Source: Bacteroidia bacterium (GTDB lineage: Bacteria; Bacteroidota; Bacteroidia; Cytophagales; JAAEPT01). Taken from it: DNA of 64,000 nt. Both the position numbers and the translations under genes were made by a program. Location: positions 1 to 64,000 of the forward strand of contig JAUIJC010000003.1 in NCBI GenBank assembly GCA_030431525.1, given 5' to 3'. Shown here piece by piece: positions 27,129-45,666 of the stretch. The notes beneath the pieces are model-generated. The model was not told the DNA's origin and ran no database searches. It saw only the letters and a list, made by a program, of their open reading frames with translations. Within the stretch, counting starts at the first letter, position 1; every line of letters begins with the position of its first letter.

Positions 27129-27758
27129 TTATAATATGTCGGTGAAATTTATTTTCTTAATCGATCCGTCTTTTCCCTCTATCATAGCATTTTCGATATT
27201 TTTGTATATTTCTTTATGCTTGTTTTCTGGTATTTCAATTATGTTAAAAGGGTCTATTATGAAATGTTTAGTTATGGTGTTATCTGATTCATTTTTAAAT
27301 GAAACTTTAACAATGTGATTGAGTGAAAGTTGTGTTTTTAAAAAGTCTGGGTGATTGTACGCTTCATGTGCGATTCTTTTATTTTCTTTCAATGAATAGT
27401 CGGAGCTGTAGAGGATGCCAATAGTGTTTTTTGTGTTGTGGGTTCTTATTATTAAGTCGAAATAATCGTAAATTTTAAAATAGGATGTGTCGTTTATTGT
27501 TGATGATTCATAGAATGAATTGACTTCAATTTTTTGATTGTGTAAATGGTGTCCTACGTTTTCAATAGTTATTATTTCAAAATCCCCTTTAAAGTCTCTT
27601 TTTAAGTTAATTATAGGTTGGTGGTCTTTTATTAGATAATCTAATTGCTTCTCGGATGTTAACCAGCTCAAATACGCAACAATAATGGATGCGGAGCCTA
27701 ATAATACGTATGCAAATACCTCAAAGTATATTCTATTGTTTTCTAGATGTTTTTTCAT
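27129..27758 (-). CDS. Hypothetical membrane-anchored protein
   Basis: This 209-residue protein has one N-terminal helix (~12-32, 'YFEVFAYVLLGSASIIVAYLS') followed by a beta-rich domain ('KDHQPIINLKRDFKGDFEIITIENVG', 'KVSFKNESDNTITKHFIIDPFNI'). The gene is very AT-rich compared with the PorP gene beside it and uses few GC-ending codons, suggesting a different origin. The 3' end lies next to the complete family B element. I do not recognise the family. Confidence 0.65.
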   Translation of the reverse strand: MKKHLENNRIYFEVFAYVLLGSASIIVAYLSWLTSEKQLDYLIKDHQPIINLKRDFKGDFEIITIENVGHHLHNQKIEVNSFYESSTINDTSYFKIYDYFDLIIRTHNTKNTIGILYSSDYSLKENKRIAHEAYNHPDFLKTQLSLNHIVKVSFKNESDNTITKHFIIDPFNIIEIPENKHKEIYKNIENAMIEGKDGSIKKINFTDIL

Positions 27759-27825
27759 GGTTGTTTGGGTTTCATCAGAAACAGCAAAGTAATTCTAAAT
27801 ATATAATCCTTCCAAAAAAAAAATA

Positions 27826-28725
27826 TCACCTCCCCCGAAACCTCAACGGCCTTACAAAAGCCAACCCGCGTTTTCCCTTTAGGTTAAAGGCGACCATAAT
27901 GTTGTGGTAGGGGCCGAGGTAGGTGGTTTCGGGATGGAGGTTGTACTCGAAGCCGTAGGCGACTTCCATCTGGGGGAAGCGGTAGCCGATGGCGGAGCTG
28001 GCCCACATGGAGTTGTTGAGGCCGATCTGTAGCCAGAAGCTTTCCATCCAAATCAGTTGGACGAGGCCCTCGTACTGGACAAGGTCGTGGTAGAAATAGT
28101 TGACATAGGCGATGGGCTTGAGCATAAAATTGCGCCCGTTCAGCTCGAAGGTGTACATGGCGTACAGGACGCTGTTGAAGTCCGTGGATTCACGGCTTTC
28201 GAAGATTTCGGGCAGGCTGAGGCCCGCCTCAAACTTGTAGGAAATCAGCGAGATGCCCAGTCCCGCCTTGAGGTTGAGCCCCGAGTTGTAGTCCGAATAA
28301 ATGGTGTTGTCGGTCAGGTCCACTTGGTCGTTGAGCTCGTCCTGTTTCAGGCTGTTGTTGCGGAGGCCACCGTCCATGCCGAAGGAGGCGACGAGGTCCT
28401 TGGTCAGTCGGATTTTATAGGCCAAGGCGATGTCGAAGCTGGTGGTCTCGAAGACGCCCCGCTTGTAGTGCTGGATTTTTCCGCCCACGCCCAGCATGGA
28501 TTTTTTCATGGTGTACTGGAAGGTGCCCAAGTATTTCGCACTGTTCTTTTTGACGGGTCCGCTGGGTAGTTCGCAGGCGAAGTAGGAATGGAAATCGTCC
28601 ACGTAGCCAGCGTTGGCGGGGTTAATCAAATAGGGGTTGACGCTGAAAAAGCGAATGCCCGATTGGCGCTGGGCCATGGCGCTGGTGGCCACCAATAGGA
28701 GTCCGAAGAGGAAGAACACTTTCAT
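27826..28725 (-). CDS. PorP/SprF family outer-membrane protein
   Basis: This 299-residue protein has a signal peptide ('KVFFLFGLLLVATSAMAQ'). It has the PorP/SprF hallmarks: 'FFSVNPYLINPANAGY' at the N-terminus, 'GTFQYTMKKSMLGVGGKIQHY' and a barrel-like C-terminal part ('FNSVLYAMYTFELNGRNFMLKPIAYV'). The family (SprF in Flavobacterium johnsoniae) is needed for secretion or surface attachment of type B T9SS cargo. Its ATG directly follows the stop codon of the type-B-tail gene (no gap), so it is the third gene of the giant-protein operon and the probable partner of that cargo. Confidence 0.92.
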   Translation of the reverse strand: MKVFFLFGLLLVATSAMAQRQSGIRFFSVNPYLINPANAGYVDDFHSYFACELPSGPVKKNSAKYLGTFQYTMKKSMLGVGGKIQHYKRGVFETTSFDIALAYKIRLTKDLVASFGMDGGLRNNSLKQDELNDQVDLTDNTIYSDYNSGLNLKAGLGISLISYKFEAGLSLPEIFESRESTDFNSVLYAMYTFELNGRNFMLKPIAYVNYFYHDLVQYEGLVQLIWMESFWLQIGLNNSMWASSAIGYRFPQMEVAYGFEYNLHPETTYLGPYHNIMVAFNLKGKRGLAFVRPLRFRGR

Positions 28726-29400
28726 TTAGCGGTTTTTTAGGGAGAAGGAACCGTAGAAAATTTTGTCGATGCTGGGGTTCTCGAAGGTGAAATAATAGTC
28801 GCCCAGCGGTAGGGGGTTGCCGTCGTGCGTGCCCGACCAGTCGTTCCCGTAGTCCTCGCTTCTGAAAATCAGAAAGCCCTCCACGGTGTAGATGGTCAGC
28901 ACGAAATCCTCGTAGAGCGCCACATCCCGAATCACCAAATAATCGTTGACGCCGTCGCCGTTTGGTGAGATGTAGTTGTTGTACTTCAGCTCGCCTTCGG
29001 GGTAGAGGTCCGAATCGGAAATCAGGAAGGGTTCTTCGATGGAGCCCACAATGCCGTCGGAATCGAACAGCAAAGTGGTCTGGGCGTTCACGGTCTGGTC
29101 TCTGCTGGCGTCGAACATTTTGAAGGTGATGCTGTCGCCAGCTGGCGAGTTGCTCCCGATTTGAAAAAGCACGGTGCCGTAGCCCGTTTCGTCGTGCAGG
29201 AAGCTAAGCTTGCCCACCCCGCGCAGTTCGTTGCCGACATAGGCGCCCACCCTGTCCGCGCTGTCCACGGAATAGCTTTGGTCGATGACCAAGTGGCAGG
29301 TGATGGACATGCGGTGTTCGTATTGGGCAAGGTTCACTTCCCAATTTTGCGCCTTGGCGGACAGGGCGCACAGGAGCAGGAGCCAAGGAAGGAGTCTCAT
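28726..29400 (-). CDS. Small T9SS type B (gliding-motility-associated C-terminal domain) protein
   Basis: This 224-residue protein has a signal peptide ('MRLLPWLLLLCALSAKA', ~17). Residues ~31-127 form a domain homologous to two domains in the giant protein upstream ('MSITCHLVIDQS', 'GDSITFKMFDASRD', 'IEEPFLISD'). The C-terminus ('YISPNGDGVNDYLVIRD ... VEGFLIFRSEDYGNDWSGTHDG ... YYFTF ... YGSFSLKNR') is a type B T9SS sorting domain, i.e. the CHU_C/gliding-motility-associated type. Its ATG overlaps the giant's TGA (TCAT at 29397-29400), and its stop abuts the PorP gene, so translation of all three is coupled. It is probably an accessory or cap subunit of the surface structure. Confidence 0.9.
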   Translation of the reverse strand: MRLLPWLLLLCALSAKAQNWEVNLAQYEHRMSITCHLVIDQSYSVDSADRVGAYVGNELRGVGKLSFLHDETGYGTVLFQIGSNSPAGDSITFKMFDASRDQTVNAQTTLLFDSDGIVGSIEEPFLISDSDLYPEGELKYNNYISPNGDGVNDYLVIRDVALYEDFVLTIYTVEGFLIFRSEDYGNDWSGTHDGNPLPLGDYYFTFENPSIDKIFYGSFSLKNR

Positions 29401-32400
29401 TGTTTCAGAAGTTTTTGGGTGATGGTCTCGTTTTCGAACCTCAGGTTCAGGTAGTAGACGCCCGTGCTGAGCGATGCGCCACTCGGGTCGATGGTGATTG
29501 CACTCTTTCCGGCATCCTCGGAGCGGATAAAGACGGTTTGCCCGTTGGTGGTGATCAAGGTGATGACCACATCGCCGGTGCGGTCCTCGCCGAGTTCGAT
29601 GGTGAAGGCGTCATTGAACGGGTTAGGCACCACCTTGACGGAGCTTTTCGGGTGACCGATATGGAGCTCCATCGGGGCGCTTAGGGTGCCCGTCCGTTGG
29701 TTGGCCACAAAGCGGATTTCCTCTTGAATCACATAAGGATTGCCCTCGCTGTCATAGAGCTTGAAGGAAATATTGGTGGATTCCTTTCCGGAGATGGTGA
29801 GGAAGAACAGTCCGTTTTCGAGCTGGCTTTCGGTGGCTACGCCCACAATTTCATCGCCTTTGTAGGCGACCAAAGCGCCTCCCGATGACAGTACATAGCT
29901 TTCCATGTCCATCACCTTGGCGATGACCGTCATGTTGTTGCCATAGCGGTCCGGTGAGAAATCCTCCAGTCCGTCCACGGGTGGCAAGGCCTTTTTGGTG
30001 ATGCTGTAGCCCGACAGGCTGGCGTATTTCGGGAAGCTCAACTCATTGTCCTTGGCGCAGTGAATCATGTAGCCCGTGTGAGGCTCCAAGTATTCCAAAC
30101 TGCCGACCCAACCAAGGTTGGCGTCGTACACGGCAAACTGCGTTTGGGCTTTGATCATATCGCCCTCGGTGGCGTCTAATCCAGACAGCGCCTCGTTGAT
30201 TTTCATCTTCGTGCCTCCCACAAAACCAATCCATGTCCATTCATTGGCTTTGATCGGGATGGAAACGGTGGTGGGGTCCGCCAATGGTCCCGAGTAGTTG
30301 ATGACCTTCGGGCTGTTCGCGAAAATCTTGTAGCCCCAGCCGATGTCCAGTCCGGTCTCCTTGTCTGAAAGGTTGTCGCCGGCAAGGTTGCCGTACCATT
30401 TGTTGGAGGCTTTGGTGTAGAGGTCGAATCGGCCAAGGCCGTCCGTAATCAAGTCGCCTTCATTGTTAATCACGCTGTTAAAGAGCGAACTACTGCGTTC
30501 CAGTTTTGTGGAGATGCCGTTGAAGGATACCCATGACCAACCCGATGGAATGCTCAGGCTGTGCATCACCTCGCCGGTGGTGCGGAAGGTGATGGGTTCA
30601 CTGTACGAACCGAGTACCGAACCAGATTGGAAATCAATGGTCTTGGAGGTGTTGCCTTGGAAAATCACATCCGGAAGGTCGTAGATGATGCCCTCGTCGG
30701 CGTCCCAAATTTTGAAGGACACTTCCTCGCCCTGTTTCACATTGCTGTAAACGGTCAGTTTGGCGAACAGCTTGTCGTATTGGCTGATGTAGTCCAAGCT
30801 GGTGCGTCCGCGGATGGTGTTGTTCACCGTGGCGATGAGCAGGTCGTTGGGGTCGTTGGTCAGGAAGCCGTTGATTTCCAATTGGCCGATGACGGTCATG
30901 GAATCCGTGTAGTCGGCGGGGTTGAAGTTGAACTGTTTTGGAAGGGGCTGGAACACCTCCAAGTTCAGGTTCAGCACCTCGTTGAATCCCTCGTTGGCCT
31001 TCAGGTAAATCGGTTCGCTGTACTTGCCTTTCGGCACATCCTTGTGGATGTAGAAGGTCACTTTTTGGACGCTTTTCGGAGAAAGCTCGCCCTCGCTTGG
31101 GATGGCGATTAACCATTCTGGAAGGTCGTGGAGCTCGAAGTCCTGAATCGTTCCGCCCTCGTTTTGGATGTAGGCCTCGAAGCTGAGTTCCTCGCCGACC
31201 TTTTTGCGAAGCGTTTCCTCACGACGGTCCCACACCACTTGGTTCAGGTCGATATAGGCCGACCATGTTACCGGCGAAACCATGCGGTTGCCGTTTTTGT
31301 CGTAGATGTTGCTCACCGTAAAGTCGAGGATGGTGTTCTCTATTTTCGCGGGGTCGTTAACCGACAGGTCAATCAGGATTTGGTCGCCGTTGGCCGAGAA
31401 GTTAAAGTGGACTGGAACAGGGTAAGGGTCGGATTTGATGGTCGGTGATTCCGCCACAATCTGAGTGCCGTTCAGCTGTGCGAATAGGCTGTCCTTGCCC
31501 TCCACAATATTGCCGGAGTGCGGAACCACGGTGCGCAAATACGAGTCGTAATCCTCGAAAGGCAGGTACACGTCCAAGCCTTTTTTGTCATTGCGCAGGC
31601 GCTTGTTCATGTCCCGCTCAATTTGCTGTTGTTTGCGCGCCAATCCCCAAATGCGCAACTCATCAAAGGAACCGTTGAAGTGCTCATCGACGATTTTATT
31701 CGTCAATGAATCGTAATACACCCGTGCACCAAGGTTCACGGCTGGGCCTCCGAAACCGCTCCATGTCATGCCGTATTCGGCCTTGTTCAGTTGGCCGTCG
31801 ATGATGGCCGAGGTGTAACCGTTCCGGTTGACCACTAGTGCAAAGTGGTGCCATTTGTTGTCGAAGAAATTCGAGTCCGTGGCGTTGAATACCAAGCCGT
31901 TGTTGTACACGCGAATCTGTCCGGTTGGCAGGGCTTTGATGGCCCATGAGTCGGCATTGCCCCAAGTGGAATCGCCTTGGGCGGTTTCCCCACGACCGTT
32001 CGAGAACAGGGTGCTCGTCTGATTTGGTTGGTTGCCTTTGAACCAAAAGGCGATGGTGAAGTCGGCCTCGTCAGTGTAGGCCACCGTGCCGGCGTATTCC
32101 AGATAACTGCCGTTGGTTTTCAGGCTCATGGACTCGGGGAGGAGTTGCCATGTGCCGTTGAAGACGGCGTCGCGGTCTTGGGCCTTGTCAATCAGCGATG
32201 CGCCTTGGCCTTCATCCATTGGCCAGTAGCCCAAGAGGTTCACTTCTTTGCCGGTCAGTTTGTTATTGAAGTTGGAGGCGATTTCTATTTCAGATTTTTC
32301 CTTCTTCCAAACCCTTAGGTCGTGGATGTAGCCCGTGAACGGGGATTTCCCACCGTGCTTTCCGCCGAGTACCAAATCGCCTTGGCCCAGATAGATTTCC

Positions 32401-35400
32401 GTGAAGCTGGAAGTGAAGGCGGTGCGTTGTCCGTTGATGTAGAGCGACACCTCATCCGTTTCGGGGTCGAAGCTGAAGGCCACGTGCGTCCAATCGTTCA
32501 GCGGAATGCTGTGGATGGATTCCACGCTGTTGTTGTCGTTCATGCTGAAAAGCAGACGGCCGTTCGAGCCGATGTCCAAGGAGAAGAAAGTTTCCTCACC
32601 GAGGCCGTGACTCAGAATGCGTTGCGGTCCAGAGGAGGAAGTTCGGTTCAGCCAGAGCTCCATGGTGAAGGCATTACCCAGCAGGTTCAGGTCTTGGATG
32701 AAAGTGCTGTCCTTGCCCGTGCTGGAATAGGCGGTGCTGGTGCCGTGTTGCAGGCCTTCGCCGTTCAGGCGACCTTCAACGATGATGTTGTCTTGGCTGA
32801 TTTTTCCGATTTCAATGGACTCGTTGAATTTCAAGAGGACTTCATCGCCGGGCGATAAAACGCCGTCGGCAGGCTGTGGCGCACCAAAAGGATAAGGCGA
32901 TTGCTTGTCGATGACACCCTTGGAAATGGAGGACTGGGATTCGGTGCCGTCCTCGCAGATAAAGTACCAGCGCACGTCATAATCGCCGTTGGTCAGGTCG
33001 TACGGCGTGATGTCCCAGTCATACACGATGTAGTTGTTCCCGATTGGGAAATACTGCCAGTCGTTCTGTTCCACTTCGATGGAATCCCTCGACCAGATTT
33101 CGATGTCCACCCAATCCAAGTCCGAACCGTAGGCGGGCTTGAACTGCAACTTGATTTTGCGGTGGTTGTCGAAGAAGAAGTTGTTTTCCTGAATCTCGCA
33201 GGTCAGCACATTGCCGGAGGCTTTGTTGATGACCCAATTGCTGGATGGGGCGATGACCTGCGCCACGGGACAGGCCGGAATGAAGTACACCGAGATGGTG
33301 TCCACGGCGAAAATGTCCTTCTGGAAATCGAGGTCGGTGCCGAAGTCGAACTGGCATGGAGAGTAGAAATAGGCGACCATGTCCACGTATTCGTACTCGC
33401 CACGGATTGGCCGGACGGTCATTTTCTTGTCCAATTGGTCGCCGGCGCTCATCGGGATTTTGGTGCCCTTGATAAAGCGCTCACCATCCAAGCGCAGGGT
33501 GGCGCCATTACCGTTTGTCCGTTGGTCGAGGATGAATTCGTAATAGCGTGTGCTGTCCTCGTCGTTGTAGTTTTCGAACACCACATCGAAGATGGCGCGC
33601 TGGTCGGCGGGAACGCCCGTCAGGATGCGTGGCTCGATGCGCAGTCCCGGCTGGTCGCGCTGGTAGGAACCACGACTGATTTTGGTGGTGTCGGTATTAG
33701 CTGAATCGACATAGGCGATGTATTTCGGGCTGAATTCTTCCTCGTGCGGACAGGAGGTACGACCGCCTTTGAGCACATACACAGGGTCGTACATGTAGTC
33801 ATTGAAATAATCGTCCGCATTCACCTGAAGGCTATCGAAAGCATCGGGGTCGGCCGTGCCGAAGGCTCCACGCACTGGCGCTAAAGCGTTGGCAAAGGTG
33901 AAATCGACAATCATCTTGGTGCGAAGCACGGACTGCCATGTATCGAAGTTTTCTAAGTCCTCGTCACGTCCGTTTTTTCCCGAAAGGATGACTTCTACGT
34001 TCAGCTTGTCGCCCACATCTTTGTCCTCCAACACATAGCCCACTTTGGCGTTGTCGGTCTGGTTGGTGCTGGACGAAACGCTGGAGGTGGTCACGTTTTT
34101 ATAATCTACACGCAATCGGCTGGTGGCGAACATCTCAAAATAGACATCCAAGTAGCCACCGCCCGAGGCCTTGTAGTTGAAGTTCTCGGTGTTTTGGTTT
34201 GAATTCGACAGGTTGTAGGATTCCTCAATTTTGGCGCCCGCGCCGAAGGAATAGTTCTTACGGGTGTCCGTGGAATTGATGGCCTGAAGCTTTTGGAGTT
34301 CGTTGTGTCCAAGTACCTGTTTCCAGATGTTGATTTGGTTGCGCAGGCGGTTGTATTCAGCCGTGGTGGTGTCGGTGATGTCGCCGATGGTTTTCTCCAA
34401 GGCCTTGACTTCCTGCTCGATTTGCACGGCGGTGTAGGCAAATTCCGTTTCCTCGGCGGTGTTGATGTACACGGCGATGCTCTTGTATTTGCCGATGCGG
34501 TAGGGCACGCTGTGGCCGTTCGGGTAGACCACCTCATCAAGGCAACCGTTCTTGCATTTTTCCTCGGGAATGACGGCCACGTTGCGGGTGACAGGGGTGA
34601 AGATGTTCACGCCTCGGCCCACAAATAGGTCGCTTTGATGGCCGGCGTTTCGTGGTTCCTTGCTGGTTTCAATGCGTCGTTGGGTCTCTACGGTGCGCAC
34701 CGAGGTGGCTGAGCGTTCGTCGGTCCATTGCTGTTCGTACTGGAAACCAACCATGCTTTTTTCCTTGGCCACCAAGGTCAGGAAGAGCAGTTTTTCGAAG
34801 CCGATACCAATACCGATTTCTTCGGAGAACTGGTTGGAGTTGGTGGTCTCGTACTTGGAGGCGAATTCCAGCTTGGTGCCCTTTTCGATATAAGCGTAGC
34901 TCTGGCTTCCTGGCGGGTCGCGCAACACGAAGTCTACCATTTGGAGCGGGTCGTCGTCCTCCTTTTTCACGGTGTAAAAATCCGACTGGCTTTCGGCGAT
35001 GCTTCCCAAGACGTAGCCTCGGAAGATGTCGCCTTTGTAGAGCCAAGCCTGATGGCCTGGACCGAAGAACTGAATGTCCCAAGTGTAGCTCCGCTCAGGG
35101 CGCTTTCGGTTGTAAGTGATGTTCGGGTTGCCCGCTTGGAAAGGGTATTGGAAAAAGCCCAGCGAGTCCCGTGCCTGCTCCTCCAACTTAATCATCTTGT
35201 AATCTTGGGAGATGTTGTTCTCTACTCTGAAATCGCCCTCGGTGACGTCGTTGCTGTACCATGCGCCGTTGTCCACGTTTTGGTATTGCTCGGCGACTTT
35301 GATATTCCAAGTGTACCAATTGTCCTGCTGGAAAACAGGGAAGGCGAAGGAGGAGCTGTCCACAAGAATAATGGCGGATTCTTCGGAGTTTGGGAGCTTG

Positions 35401-38400
35401 ACGTTGATGCGTCTGGCGCCGAATTGCGTTGGGTCGTCGTTGCCCGATTTCACCACGATTTCGGCTGGCTTGCGGTAGATGAAATCCTTGACGTAATGGT
35501 AGTCCACGATGTTGTCCAAAGCGCCGTCTTCAAACTTTTCGCTTTCGGCGGTTTCCTGCAAGAGCAGGGTATCGGAATTCAATGGAATCGTCCCTTCGGT
35601 GAGTGTGCGCAACTCACGGTTTTGTTGGGCCGTTCCGTTCACGCGTTTCAGTTCGGACACGCGGTAAAGGAGTGGGAGCAGTTCCACCTCATATTCTCCC
35701 GTTAGGGAATCGGTATAGACCGTTTCGGTCACACAATCCTTTCCGATGGATTGGAAGGTGATTTTGGTGACACCCAAGTTGTTTTTGGTCCGTCCAAACC
35801 CAGCGAATTTTCCGCCTTCGTTCACGCCACCGACCACTTTGCCGATGATTTTTCGGGTGGTGTTGTCGTAGAATTTCAGGCCGATGACATCGTCTTGGAA
35901 ATCATGCGGGTTTTCATTTGGCCATTGGCCCACGGAGAAGGTGTGATTGTTCTTCAGTACGCTGATGGTGTGCTCGCCAATCGGCACCGCGATTTCGAAA
36001 TAACCGTTGCGGTCGGTTTTGAGCAGGTTGCCGTCTTTGAACAGCGGTTCGCCATCGATGAGGAAAAAGGCGCCTTCCACGCCACAGCCCTCAATGTTGG
36101 GGTCGTTGCGGTCGGTGTAGCCCAATAGCATTGGGTCGTATTGCACCAGTCCTGTGACGAGGAAGGAGGAGAGGTCCTCGAAGTTGACGTTGTTGTTGAC
36201 CAGTGCGCCCTTGCCGATAAACAGCACCGTGTTGGATGGGGCAAATTGGTGCTTGTTGAAAATCGGTGCCACGGTGTAGTTCTGTCCCGTGCCCGAGAAA
36301 GCCACCGCCTCGATGGTGTAATTGCCGTGCTGGTCGGTGTAGCTGGTGTAGGAAAGTTGTTCCGAGACGGGCACCGCGTTGGACCATTTCACATTGCCCG
36401 ATAGTTGTCCGTGGTGCTCGTTGAACTGGATGCCCGTTTGGCTGATGTGGTTGGAGGCGTCGTAGATGGCTTCGCCCACGCCCTCGTTGATGCGCCAATA
36501 GGCGATAAGGTTTTCCTCGCCACTGCCCAAATAGCGTTGGAAATCTTTGTAAACGGTCATCTGGTCTTTGGCCTTTGACCAAATGGAAACCTCGTCCAAG
36601 AGTCCGTCGAAAGGACCGAAGGTGAGTTGTGAGCGTTCGATGGTCGAGAGGTCAATCTGTGCGCTGTCTTTCAATAAACCATTGACAAAAACCTTCAATT
36701 GCCCGCCTTGGTAGGTGAGGTAAAGGTGGTTGTATTCGTTCAGATAGATGCCTTTCAGGTCGATGCTGTTGCCGTTTGGCAGTTGGAAACCGAGCTGGGA
36801 ACGTGGCTTGGTGATGGTGTCGTAGGGGACTTCCACGGTGATGTCCTCCATGCGCTGGGTGATGCTGTACAGCTCAAGGTCGTGGTAGTTCGGGTTTTGC
36901 ACGACCTGATAAATCACGGTGCCGTCTGTTCCTTTGATGTATCCGCTGGCGGGGTCATAGTCATAGGTGTAGGTCTTCTCGACGGTGTAGAACACATTGT
37001 TGTCGGCCATGTAGCCCACCAATAATTCGGGCTCGCTGGCCGAGAAAATCCACGGGCCTTTTTTCAGGTAGCGCAAGGCGCCAAGGTCCAGCACTGAATG
37101 GGAACGGATTTCCGAAGAGAAAACATAACCGGCTTCATTGATTTGGTATAATACCTCGGCGTTGACGTGTGAGGCGATGACCGATTTGGCGCCATCAATA
37201 ATGCCGATTTGCGCGCCTTTGGTGGCCACCACTTTTTTGGAGGAAATGATGTAGCGGGTGGTGATGTTGTCGTCATCAAAGGTGGCGAAGCGGTCGCCTC
37301 GGACGTATTTGTTTGGGGCGATTTTCGACAGGTAATAGAGGTCCTTATTTAAGTAAAGGTGATAAGGCTCGTCCTTGTCGTTGTAGATGGTGTCGCCACG
37401 GAGCACGCCGTAGTAGCTTGGGTCCTGCACATAGCGCAGGGTATCGCCGGTGAAGCGGGCGTAGGGGGCGCCGAGCTCAAAGTTTTTCATCAGCACATTG
37501 GCCTGATAGACCTTGCCGTTTTCGATAATCAACTTAGGCACTTCAGAGGCGTCCGTCTCAAAGATGGTGTCGGTGGCCAAGTAGCCAGCCAATTGGTTCG
37601 GCATAGGGCCGACCACCTGTTTTTTGTCGAAGGCGAAAATCGAATCCCCACGAAGCAAAAAGCTCGGTTTGCCGTTCGTGTTGTAGAGCGTATCATCCTC
37701 CAAAAGCGCATAAGCCACATCCTGCTCATAAAGAATCAAGCTGGAATCTGGCAGGTAGAGTTGCCCGAAAATGGATTGGTCGGAGGCTTTTGAAAATACA
37801 TAAGTTCCTGAGTCCTGCGCCAGAGCCACCAAAGCGGTGCGGTCATAGACGGGCGATTCCTGCGTTTGGCTTTCCGTCAGAATCAGCTGTTCGTCCTGCT
37901 GACTGCCCATGCCGATGCGGAATTGGCCAGAGTTGCCAAGGCTCAATAGGCTTTGGCCGGAAAGGGTGTCCCTCGGATTTATCCAGAACCCCATCGACCA
38001 CTGATCGGATGGGAGCCAGTTATTTCCCTGTTTGTCGAGGAGGGAAGTGGTGAACGTGCCTTCCTTCAGGTCGATGCTGTTGCCTTGGGCGATGTCGTTG
38101 CTGGGCAGGGCGGTGATGCGGACATTCTGCACGGCATTGCCCTCTTGGAAAGTGACCTTGCCGTTGATGACACCGAACTCCGAGCTGAATCCCGTGGCCT
38201 TGTAAACGGTCTCAAATTCTGGGCGGAAATTCTTGTACAGGTCGCAGTCCAAGGCGATGATGGCGTACTCGTACAATTGCCCCGATTCAATGTCTTTGTC
38301 GCTCCAATTTTCCGCTGGCGCGTCGATGTGGTCCACCTCCTGAAAGGCGTTGCTATAGGCCAGTTCCCGTCGGTAGATGATGAATTTGCTCACCGAGCTT

Positions 38401-39941
38401 GTGCCCGTGTAATTCCATGATAGCACCACGCGGTCGGGGTAGAAACCTTTGGAGGCGGTGAACTCCTGAAATTGATTCAGGTTCGGGTTCAGGGCGATAG
38501 GGAGGGGAATTTCCTCGGAGCGCTGTTCGTTGAAGCACTTGCTTTTGACGGCGACCACATAGGCGTATTCTGAGCAGTTCAGCAGGTCGATGTCCGTGAA
38601 GGAGCGCGCCGATGAATCCAATGTGGCAATCAGACTGAAGGAGCCGGATTTCAGTTTTCGGTACAATTGGAACTCCTCGAATTTCCCTCCAAAATGGTCC
38701 CAAGTGATGGTCGCTTGGTCGGGGCTGATCAGTTCGGCCTTGACGTTCTCGGGCTTAAGAGGTATGCCTGGAATCTCGATGTTCAGACTGTTCGAGAGTT
38801 TGGAAACGCCACAGATGTCCACGCCACGCACGCGGTAATAATATCGGGTGTCAAAACTCAGCTCACCCCAGACCGAGTTGTCATCGGTGAACTTGTATTG
38901 GTTGGAGCCGAATTGCTGGACGGCATAGGCGTTAATCTGATGCTGTTTCAGGTCGGCACTGAAATCGGGGGAGAGGCTCCGCTCGATGATGTAAATGTCG
39001 GGTTTCTCAATGGGGTTCACCGTCCATGTCAGCAGGTTTGCGATGTCCGCCTGCGTGGTGGCGCATCCCTGTTGGCTTAGCTCCAGCTCATTGATGCCTG
39101 AAAGTACCTTGATGGGGGTATTCGTGGTTTCAAGGAAGTCGCTGTAGTAGGTATTTCCTGGAATGGACACCTTGGACCGGATTTCATACTTGTAGCCTGA
39201 GGCTTTGTAGGGCACGTTGTCCGTGTAGTCGCTGGCGCTGGAGGCGACATCCGCCACATGCTGGCCATCGCGGTAAATCTGGATGGTGGTTTGGTTACAC
39301 TGCTGGGTAGGGCGGTTCCATTTCAACTTCACACCTCCACAGACAGGCTCGGATTGCAAGGCCGTTGGTTCCGGAAAGTTCGGTGCCGTGAACACAGTGC
39401 TGTAGGTGGAGGTGAAATTGCCCCCGTAGCTTCCGCTCATGGTCACGTTCAGCGACTGCCCGTAGTCCGATTTTTTGATGGGAATCTCCACCTCGGCATA
39501 GAAGGCGATGCAGTTGAATTTACAGGCGCCTAAACATCCACCGCCATTTTCTGGCAGGTTGCCCGTTCCGCTCTTGTTGGTAAAGTTGTAGCCGTTATGG
39601 GCTTTCATGTACAGCCTCCTTCCGGAGCCACACGGGCTGTATCGCACCGAGGAATTCGAGTTGCTCAGCGACTTGCCCACCTCCACGGCGTTCACCCCGT
39701 TGATCTTTATGTAGTTGCCAGAACCGCTGTACTCCCGCCAGTTTTTAATGGAGAGTCCGCAGGCCCCACAGCTGGAAAATTGGGCGACCAGAAACCGCAC
39801 TTTCAGGGTGCCGTTGCATTCGTTGAAACTCACCTCGTGGATGCCTTTGCTCTGCGAAAAAGCTGTCCAACTCAGGGTGGTCATTAGGGCGAGAATCAAC
39901 CAAAAATTTTTGCTGGTCCTCGAAAGTAGCGCCTGCCTCAT
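29397..39941 (-). CDS. Giant LamG/FN3 surface protein with T9SS type A sorting domain (~3,515 residues)
   Basis: The start at 39941 (MRQALLSRTSKNFWLIL) gives a normal signal peptide; the GTG at 40001 would add an unlikely leader. From there: ~30-180 beta domain; ~185-590 FN3-like repeats ('GVKLKWNRPTQQCNQ', 'QATITWDHFGGKFEEFQLYR', 'RVVLSWNYTGTSSVSKFIIYR'); ~630-1160 a LamG domain split by a ~365-residue insert; ~1200-1500 carboxypeptidase-regulatory-like segments ('GYFEIAVPIGEHTI'). About 1500-2200 is unrecognised and includes a coiled coil. LamG domains follow at ~2400-2570 and ~2600-2780, then two copies of a ~100-residue domain (~3010-3120, ~3335-3430) around a 'GWSWVSFN/EWTWIGFV' pair. 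A type A sorting domain ends 'GVYYLNLRF ... TQKLLKQ'. It is likely a cell-surface adhesin or glycan binder. Confidence 0.92.
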   Translation of the reverse strand: MRQALLSRTSKNFWLILALMTTLSWTAFSQSKGIHEVSFNECNGTLKVRFLVAQFSSCGACGLSIKNWREYSGSGNYIKINGVNAVEVGKSLSNSNSSVRYSPCGSGRRLYMKAHNGYNFTNKSGTGNLPENGGGCLGACKFNCIAFYAEVEIPIKKSDYGQSLNVTMSGSYGGNFTSTYSTVFTAPNFPEPTALQSEPVCGGVKLKWNRPTQQCNQTTIQIYRDGQHVADVASSASDYTDNVPYKASGYKYEIRSKVSIPGNTYYSDFLETTNTPIKVLSGINELELSQQGCATTQADIANLLTWTVNPIEKPDIYIIERSLSPDFSADLKQHQINAYAVQQFGSNQYKFTDDNSVWGELSFDTRYYYRVRGVDICGVSKLSNSLNIEIPGIPLKPENVKAELISPDQATITWDHFGGKFEEFQLYRKLKSGSFSLIATLDSSARSFTDIDLLNCSEYAYVVAVKSKCFNEQRSEEIPLPIALNPNLNQFQEFTASKGFYPDRVVLSWNYTGTSSVSKFIIYRRELAYSNAFQEVDHIDAPAENWSDKDIESGQLYEYAIIALDCDLYKNFRPEFETVYKATGFSSEFGVINGKVTFQEGNAVQNVRITALPSNDIAQGNSIDLKEGTFTTSLLDKQGNNWLPSDQWSMGFWINPRDTLSGQSLLSLGNSGQFRIGMGSQQDEQLILTESQTQESPVYDRTALVALAQDSGTYVFSKASDQSIFGQLYLPDSSLILYEQDVAYALLEDDTLYNTNGKPSFLLRGDSIFAFDKKQVVGPMPNQLAGYLATDTIFETDASEVPKLIIENGKVYQANVLMKNFELGAPYARFTGDTLRYVQDPSYYGVLRGDTIYNDKDEPYHLYLNKDLYYLSKIAPNKYVRGDRFATFDDDNITTRYIISSKKVVATKGAQIGIIDGAKSVIASHVNAEVLYQINEAGYVFSSEIRSHSVLDLGALRYLKKGPWIFSASEPELLVGYMADNNVFYTVEKTYTYDYDPASGYIKGTDGTVIYQVVQNPNYHDLELYSITQRMEDITVEVPYDTITKPRSQLGFQLPNGNSIDLKGIYLNEYNHLYLTYQGGQLKVFVNGLLKDSAQIDLSTIERSQLTFGPFDGLLDEVSIWSKAKDQMTVYKDFQRYLGSGEENLIAYWRINEGVGEAIYDASNHISQTGIQFNEHHGQLSGNVKWSNAVPVSEQLSYTSYTDQHGNYTIEAVAFSGTGQNYTVAPIFNKHQFAPSNTVLFIGKGALVNNNVNFEDLSSFLVTGLVQYDPMLLGYTDRNDPNIEGCGVEGAFFLIDGEPLFKDGNLLKTDRNGYFEIAVPIGEHTISVLKNNHTFSVGQWPNENPHDFQDDVIGLKFYDNTTRKIIGKVVGGVNEGGKFAGFGRTKNNLGVTKITFQSIGKDCVTETVYTDSLTGEYEVELLPLLYRVSELKRVNGTAQQNRELRTLTEGTIPLNSDTLLLQETAESEKFEDGALDNIVDYHYVKDFIYRKPAEIVVKSGNDDPTQFGARRINVKLPNSEESAIILVDSSSFAFPVFQQDNWYTWNIKVAEQYQNVDNGAWYSNDVTEGDFRVENNISQDYKMIKLEEQARDSLGFFQYPFQAGNPNITYNRKRPERSYTWDIQFFGPGHQAWLYKGDIFRGYVLGSIAESQSDFYTVKKEDDDPLQMVDFVLRDPPGSQSYAYIEKGTKLEFASKYETTNSNQFSEEIGIGIGFEKLLFLTLVAKEKSMVGFQYEQQWTDERSATSVRTVETQRRIETSKEPRNAGHQSDLFVGRGVNIFTPVTRNVAVIPEEKCKNGCLDEVVYPNGHSVPYRIGKYKSIAVYINTAEETEFAYTAVQIEQEVKALEKTIGDITDTTTAEYNRLRNQINIWKQVLGHNELQKLQAINSTDTRKNYSFGAGAKIEESYNLSNSNQNTENFNYKASGGGYLDVYFEMFATSRLRVDYKNVTTSSVSSSTNQTDNAKVGYVLEDKDVGDKLNVEVILSGKNGRDEDLENFDTWQSVLRTKMIVDFTFANALAPVRGAFGTADPDAFDSLQVNADDYFNDYMYDPVYVLKGGRTSCPHEEEFSPKYIAYVDSANTDTTKISRGSYQRDQPGLRIEPRILTGVPADQRAIFDVVFENYNDEDSTRYYEFILDQRTNGNGATLRLDGERFIKGTKIPMSAGDQLDKKMTVRPIRGEYEYVDMVAYFYSPCQFDFGTDLDFQKDIFAVDTISVYFIPACPVAQVIAPSSNWVINKASGNVLTCEIQENNFFFDNHRKIKLQFKPAYGSDLDWVDIEIWSRDSIEVEQNDWQYFPIGNNYIVYDWDITPYDLTNGDYDVRWYFICEDGTESQSSISKGVIDKQSPYPFGAPQPADGVLSPGDEVLLKFNESIEIGKISQDNIIVEGRLNGEGLQHGTSTAYSSTGKDSTFIQDLNLLGNAFTMELWLNRTSSSGPQRILSHGLGEETFFSLDIGSNGRLLFSMNDNNSVESIHSIPLNDWTHVAFSFDPETDEVSLYINGQRTAFTSSFTEIYLGQGDLVLGGKHGGKSPFTGYIHDLRVWKKEKSEIEIASNFNNKLTGKEVNLLGYWPMDEGQGASLIDKAQDRDAVFNGTWQLLPESMSLKTNGSYLEYAGTVAYTDEADFTIAFWFKGNQPNQTSTLFSNGRGETAQGDSTWGNADSWAIKALPTGQIRVYNNGLVFNATDSNFFDNKWHHFALVVNRNGYTSAIIDGQLNKAEYGMTWSGFGGPAVNLGARVYYDSLTNKIVDEHFNGSFDELRIWGLARKQQQIERDMNKRLRNDKKGLDVYLPFEDYDSYLRTVVPHSGNIVEGKDSLFAQLNGTQIVAESPTIKSDPYPVPVHFNFSANGDQILIDLSVNDPAKIENTILDFTVSNIYDKNGNRMVSPVTWSAYIDLNQVVWDRREETLRKKVGEELSFEAYIQNEGGTIQDFELHDLPEWLIAIPSEGELSPKSVQKVTFYIHKDVPKGKYSEPIYLKANEGFNEVLNLNLEVFQPLPKQFNFNPADYTDSMTVIGQLEINGFLTNDPNDLLIATVNNTIRGRTSLDYISQYDKLFAKLTVYSNVKQGEEVSFKIWDADEGIIYDLPDVIFQGNTSKTIDFQSGSVLGSYSEPITFRTTGEVMHSLSIPSGWSWVSFNGISTKLERSSSLFNSVINNEGDLITDGLGRFDLYTKASNKWYGNLAGDNLSDKETGLDIGWGYKIFANSPKVINYSGPLADPTTVSIPIKANEWTWIGFVGGTKMKINEALSGLDATEGDMIKAQTQFAVYDANLGWVGSLEYLEPHTGYMIHCAKDNELSFPKYASLSGYSITKKALPPVDGLEDFSPDRYGNNMTVIAKVMDMESYVLSSGGALVAYKGDEIVGVATESQLENGLFFLTISGKESTNISFKLYDSEGNPYVIQEEIRFVANQRTGTLSAPMELHIGHPKSSVKVVPNPFNDAFTIELGEDRTGDVVITLITTNGQTVFIRSEDAGKSAITIDPSGASLSTGVYYLNLRFENETITQKLLKQ

Positions 39942-40157
39942 AGCGTGTGATTTTGAGTGCGTCAATGGAGAAAATGGCCTCGTGCGTTTTTCTTCTCGCA
40001 CATGACAAACCTATCTCCTGACCCTCAAAACGCAATTTTTACCACCCCTACAAACACCCTACAGGCGGAAATGATAACCAAAGGTTCACGGAATGATGAT
40101 GTAAGCTTTTCGATTGGATTGTTTGGGGGATGTATGTTGGGACATGGAAAAAATGGG

Positions 40158-40221: not shown

Positions 40222-40283
40222 GTAGGGGCAGACCTGTGTGTCTGCCCAAAACACCGTGGGCGGACACACGGGTCCGCCCCTAC
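40222..40283. repeat. 62-bp palindrome (GTAGGGGCAGACC type), family D, copy 1
   Basis: GTAGGGGCAGACCTGTGTGT... (40222-40247) mirrors ...ACACGGGTCCGCCCCTAC (40258-40283), 26-bp arms with three G-U-compatible differences. A second 62-bp copy lies at 45605-45666. Confidence 0.9.
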
Positions 40284-45604: not shown

Positions 45605-45666
45605 GTAGGTGCAGACCTGTGTGTCTGCCCAGAATATTGCGGTCGGACACGCAGGTCCGCCCCTAC
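45605..45666. repeat. 62-bp palindrome, family D, copy 2
   Basis: GTAGGTGCAGACCTGTGTGT (45605 on) mirrors GCAGGTCCGCCCCTAC (ending 45666). Same length and nearly the same sequence as the copy at 40222-40283. It ends 11 bp before the stop of the membrane-protein gene at 45677. Confidence 0.9.

Follow-up and report, generated by a model that had tools for sequence, protein, structure and literature searches.

A domain shared by giant type IX secretion cargo and its neighbouring protein as a candidate surface tether in Bacteroidota

Introduction

It is already known that outer-membrane proteins of the PorP/SprF family serve type IX secretion system (T9SS) cargo bearing a type B sorting tail. In the closest described systems, SprB/SprF of Flavobacterium johnsoniae and PG1035/PorP of Porphyromonas gingivalis, the cargo likewise carries a type B tail and is paired with a PorP/SprF protein, and each cargo has been shown to bind its PorP/SprF protein (PMC9143113). 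In both, the tail-bearing protein is the surface protein itself, SprB being the adhesin. In a further study, type B tails and their shuttles determine the location of the cargo, and type A tails lead to static attachment or release (PMC12618676). The static unit Fjoh_3952/Fjoh_3951/Fjoh_3950 also combines type B cargo with a cognate shuttle, and static anchorage via a PorE-like protein has been proposed for it; the sections consulted describe neither a type A giant partner nor a shared domain for this unit (PMC12618676).

Here we analyse a locus in which the gene for a type B protein lies directly before a PorP/SprF gene, as in SprB/SprF. Unlike SprB, this type B protein is minimal, consisting of one domain (here called D) plus the tail, and a separate giant protein carries a type A tail. 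Two fates are assumed for giant type A cargo, fixation to lipopolysaccharide or release, and to our knowledge the retention of proteins above 300 kDa at the Bacteroidota cell is poorly understood. Our literature searches, which ran mostly outside subscription journals, found no description of a type A giant with a D-bearing anchor protein, nor of domain D.

Results

A three-gene locus with two kinds of sorting tail

The three genes lie on the reverse strand of the window (the whole 64,000-nucleotide stretch of DNA analysed). The first encodes a giant T9SS type A surface protein (29397..39941 (-)) of about 3,514 aa when read from the likely ATG 39941, which sits in the sequence just before a signal-peptide-like stretch; the ORF (29397-40001 (-)) opens at GTG 40001 and comprises 3,534 aa. 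The giant contains FN3, three LamG-like domains and a fixed C-terminal module (Pfam matches Laminin_G_3, 9.6e-51, and Por_Secre_tail, 8.3e-10). Its sorting domain (CTD; 29400..29630 (-), residues 3458-3534) scores 36.6 bits against the curated TIGR04183 cut-off of 23, identifying the giant as T9SS type A cargo, and the CTD model resembles solved T9SS CTDs in structure searches (mirolase CTD, Z 12.2). A SprB-type gliding adhesin has a type B tail on the large adhesin itself; the tail of this giant is type A.

The second gene (28726..29400 (-)) encodes a protein of 224 aa, hereafter the partner, whose ORF comprises a signal peptide, read in the sequence from the hydrophobic N-terminus, a D domain and a type B T9SS sorting domain (CHU_C; 28732..28986 (-); PF13585, 7.7e-17). 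This CTD (residues 139-223) reaches 52.5 bits against the TIGR04131 cut-off of 35, which makes the partner T9SS type B cargo. The third gene (27826..28725 (-)) encodes an outer-membrane protein of the PorP/SprF family (PF11751, 5.8e-26; TIGR03519, 101.5 bits against a curated cut-off of 90.55), presumed to be the cognate shuttle and anchor of the partner.

The stop of the giant and the start of the partner overlap by 4 bases (ATGA), the PorP ATG directly follows the partner TAA, and a search of the interval 27300-29700 gave no terminator-like site. The coupling of the three genes is operon-like. A first-pass annotation of this DNA had described the gene overlap, the abutting PorP/SprF gene and the type A and type B tails of the two secreted proteins; these descriptions hold, both tails lying above curated cut-offs.

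Elsewhere in the window, two inverted pairs of GTAGGGGCRGACC, ~50 bp apart, form REP-like palindromes at 40222-40283 and 45605-45666 (4 matches vs 0.09 expected), and one of the pairs is located just upstream of the giant.

An uncatalogued domain shared by giant and partner

Domain D spans about 115 residues and occurs three times in the locus. The giant carries D1 (30570..30938 (-); HMM 4.7e-41), the proposed docking site of the partner, and D2 (29652..29966 (-); HMM 1.2e-33) near its C-terminus, and the third copy, P (29008..29352 (-); HMM 6.8e-41), lies at the mature N-terminus of the partner. Pairwise BLASTP matches P to D1 at E 2e-07 and to D2 at E 2e-06. Using profiles built from many genomes, profile-profile alignment joins the three segments at 99.93-100% probability (P-D1 100%, hhalign E 3.7e-46; P-D2 99.95%, E 4.7e-38; D1-D2 99.93%), compared with 0.98% for a column-shuffled control. 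These scores rule out a chance resemblance; the three copies are homologous, and the shared domain originally recognised from the translations is borne out. The limits first drawn for the three segments were less exact, starting some 12-15 residues late relative to the HMM boundaries, by which D begins at a W-x-V-N motif. Between D1 and D2 are two GWxW-type repeats (29967..30569 (-); SGWSWVSFN... and NEWTWIGF... in the translation), a region with conserved columns across 53 giants.

AlphaFold2 models of the partner (pLDDT 88.6) and of the giant C-terminal module (pLDDT 91.7, pTM 0.80) predict the same strand order for D1, D2 and P, consistent with a common domain, and structure searches recognise both sorting tails as T9SS C-terminal domains. 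The model of D is a small beta-sandwich with middling structural matches only, among them the PepT2 ectodomain (Z 6.9, the best for partner D) and teneurin (Z 6.8); the best match of D2 is a rhamnogalacturonan lyase domain (Z 8.3). For an Ig/transthyretin-like beta-sandwich, top values of 6.9 and 8.3 are in the range of common arrangements, and PDB structure searches singled out no particular relative of the D fold. D matched no family of Pfam-A or NCBIfam at E <= 0.1, and a profile search of PDB sequences returned nothing better than one match at E 0.14. D is thus a previously uncatalogued domain, absent from Pfam and NCBIfam.

Giants and D proteins are paired across the Bacteroidota

Whole-genome searches found D in 32 of 291 genomes of the window's order and in 11 of 345 genomes of the phylum. 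The sites are giants or genes adjoining a giant (or adjoining a masked block), with a 435-aa type A protein in genome G520 as the sole exception. The window's own genome has two further giants, of which one (C22) is adjoined downstream by a 289-aa D protein and the other (C5) has no D neighbour. Scanning for the conserved giant motif FGxPQP[AS]DG gave 80 further named loci throughout the Bacteroidota and in a few neighbouring phyla, including Flexithrix dorotheae, Pontibacter oryzae and Flavobacterium species.

Our non-duplicate survey comprises 113 giants, 107 of them with more than 600 bp of downstream DNA. Nearly all 113 have two D copies near the C-terminus, at a fixed spacing and with ~500-530 aa to the protein end. 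The next gene encodes D for 83 of the 107, with D starting a median of 113 nt past the giant stop, in a count that is phylogenetically non-independent and, for loci from the motif scan, conditioned on the giant motif. Five loci with a D-type B-PorP pair (L101, L103, L104, L107 and L108) were omitted from this count because the giant is unreadable in the ~9 kb of N upstream. The remaining 24 of the 107 giants are without an adjacent partner; some of their genomes have a partner elsewhere, and in others none is seen. The pairing is conserved, as the dedicated partnership proposed at first sight would have it, and the three-gene order recurs in many genomes, ruling out an arrangement peculiar to the window's genome.

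At some loci other genes accompany the giant. Downstream of partnerless giants in two genomes (L078-L081 and L109) lie strings of ~180-376-aa proteins, several of them coiled-coil-like at the C-terminus; these proteins perhaps represent a different companion system. Proteins of ~300 aa are encoded directly upstream of giants at L073:15693-16643, L075:15833-16726, L076 (several) and L095:17552-19447; the one at L073 contains a phage tail-collar domain (PF07484, 1.3e-14) and the others look alike by eye. A study of colony-spreading genes in F. collinsii (PMC9950754) appeared relevant because the species carries the cassette (L193); it treats pep25 and lbp26, not the cassette genes, and was set aside as a lead.

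The partner domain co-varies with D1

In a mirror-tree analysis we set partner-D distances against those of windows sliding along the C-terminal 1,250 residues of 78 giants. Agreement is strongest at D1 (r 0.64; partial 0.375 once the entire C-terminal region is taken into account) vs r 0.29 and partial 0.03 at D2, with partial correlations near or below zero for the region upstream of D1; these values, like those that follow, are drawn from related genomes and paralogous domains. In the 28 cassettes with a type B partner, the partial correlation is highest for CTD-B/PorP (0.54), which served as the positive control, and second highest for P/D1 (0.35), while the negative controls D1/PorP and D1/CTD-B gave -0.05 and -0.09. 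The paralogues D1 and D2 reach only 0.08, so paralogy alone does not account for the co-variation of P with D1. A faster decay of D1 in partnerless giants was considered and proved not specific, the spacer and the upstream region falling equally; D1 is nearly lost only in L079-L081, three partnerless giants of one genome.

This pattern supports a chain in which giant D1 would contact partner D and the partner tail would contact PorP. For the second link, the co-variation of 0.54 and the gene adjacency described below agree with a PorP that would bind the adjacent type B tail.

The same result bears on two other readings. D could be a module that in both proteins binds one shared third component, such as A-LPS or a polysaccharide of the surface, without any mutual contact. 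Although a small beta-sandwich with middling matches is compatible with ligand binding, and the LamG domains of the giant would fit a glycan-binding system, the same ligand would be expected for D1 and D2, of which the partner copy follows only the first. D is also almost never found alone, which is odd for a portable ligand-binding module, and we regard this reading as unlikely. Quite improbable, in our judgement, is a higher-order assembly in which D1, D2 and P polymerise like to like, giving a surface filament or layer of giants that has the partner as its base or terminator. Two D copies per giant at a fixed distance from its end, and the three to four tandem D copies of some partners, would suit such an array; however, a D1-D2 chain predicts co-variation between these copies, and theirs does not exceed background.

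Partners carry varied, apparently interchangeable anchors

By their tails, the 83 partners, a phylogenetically non-independent set, comprise 28 of type B, 27 of type A and 28 with no recognised tail (six at contig ends). A PorP/SprF gene directly follows all 28 type B partners and none of the other 55, a strict rule. In the window's genome as a whole, 7 of the 22 type B domains over the cut-off have PorP immediately downstream, as read from coordinates. The three-gene unit with PorP/SprF that the first-pass annotation envisaged therefore recurs wherever the partner is of type B. Its further description as a unit with both sorting tails fits the present locus, with its type A giant and type B partner, and is one of at least three versions, the others having a partner with a type A tail and no PorP or a partner with a lipobox signal.

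Ten tail-less partners have a lipobox, read in the sequence, and are therefore probably lipoproteins; about a dozen complete partners lack both a lipobox and any recognised T9SS tail. Long forms are common among type B partners, and the two that were scanned have 7 and 12 cadherin repeats in the interval from D to the tail. At 224 aa and without cadherin repeats, the window partner is among the shortest forms. The partners at L114, L115 and L117 are proteins of 1,690-1,950 aa with four tandem D copies, a type A tail and no PorP, and L095:4358-9166 encodes both partner types serially: first a type A protein with three D copies, next a type B protein with D, and finally PorP.

The PorP protein of the window has no C-terminal extension. 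In many cassettes (L144, L071, L072, L126, L163, L165 and L175) PorP/SprF has a coiled-coil-like stretch and a C-terminal domain, which at L144 is a SPOR domain (PF05036, 6.5e-11); this points to a fusion of PorP with a peptidoglycan anchor of its own. The other extensions look alike by eye, but two that were tested gave no Pfam match. Several cassette relatives, with SPOR in one confirmed case, thus differ from the Fjoh_3952/Fjoh_3951/Fjoh_3950 unit in that PorP itself bears the extension.

The diversity of partners also speaks to a possible role in export, in which partner D would shield or fold the D domains of the giant during secretion and have no function at the surface. Short D-only lipobox partners without a T9SS tail could act in this way, and tight gene coupling suits co-translational partners. 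Against this, a type A or type B tail predicts export of the partner itself, and partners with cadherin repeats resemble surface stalks; we consider such a chaperone very improbable.

An old arrangement with changing anchors

In a tree of all D copies, the nearest neighbour belongs to the same class for 108 of 109 D1 and 104 of 109 D2 sequences, and partner copies mostly cluster together in a largely separate class. Identity between P and D1 is 0.291 within a genome vs 0.277 across genomes, which rules out gene conversion between partner and giant as the source of the co-variation. Given this clustering and the barely higher own-genome identity, the arrangement is old and not the product of repeated local duplication. 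It is scarcely credible that the neighbour is a neutral leftover, a duplicated fragment of the giant that gained a sorting tail and has no conserved role: this would explain the homology and adjacency of D in the two genes but not the separate partner class in the phylum-wide tree, the near-equal identities or the pairing retained at most loci.

The anchor has been exchanged repeatedly: the partner-D tree implies about ten changes of anchor class, and lipobox anchors appear at two points in it. What seems to be constant across relatives is D plus some means of fixing D to the envelope. That D is kept while the anchor swaps suggests that the partner may be a hook holding the giant at the surface.

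Discussion

We propose that the giant, partner and PorP/SprF genes form one surface-assembly unit. The giant, a presumed adhesin with LamG domains, would exit through the T9SS by its type A tail. The partner would be exported by its type B tail, and the PorP/SprF protein that the next gene encodes would then retain it at the outer membrane with D outward. Partner D would dock domain-on-domain with D1, and docking at D1, within the fixed C-terminal module, would tether the giant to the surface. Since the same D is carried in relatives by a cadherin stalk, a type A tail or a lipid anchor, the hook would be the constant part and the anchor interchangeable. Judged from comparative sequence data, it is reasonably probable that partner D docks onto D1 and tethers the giant via interchangeable anchors. 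Because a type A tail is able to attach its protein covalently to the surface unaided, a tether is not strictly needed; in view of the published anchorage of type B cargo by its shuttle, the partner is nevertheless best read as a tether held by PorP/SprF.

The first-pass annotation had imagined the small protein as a partner or cap docking with the giant through like domains. Docking gains indirect support from the co-variation with D1 and not D2 and from a D that stays while anchors swap; nothing in our analysis supports a cap.

In outline, the proposed tether resembles cohesin-dockerin systems, where a small anchored protein holds large surface proteins by a dedicated domain pair. The two differ in that the paired domains proposed here are homologous to each other, as copies of a single domain, and no cohesin or dockerin Pfam match was found at E <= 0.1 in giant or partner. 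Two-component SlaA/SlaB S-layers are also similar, a large surface protein being held there by a second, membrane-anchored protein; however, we found no sequence relation, and SlaA/SlaB appear only among the middling fold matches.

More broadly, we lean slightly towards the view that the Bacteroidota possess a docking-domain system in which two secreted proteins join through paralogous beta-sandwich domains and a small anchor thereby captures a giant adhesin. Evolution would have retained the docking domain in this system and repeatedly replaced the membrane device (type B tail with PorP, type A tail or lipid). A widespread partner with one conserved domain and an exchanged anchor would amount to a general, testable rule for surface retention. 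It would also point to what one recurrent class of type B/PorP gene pairs does, and D could be used as a modular connector in surface display on Bacteroidota.
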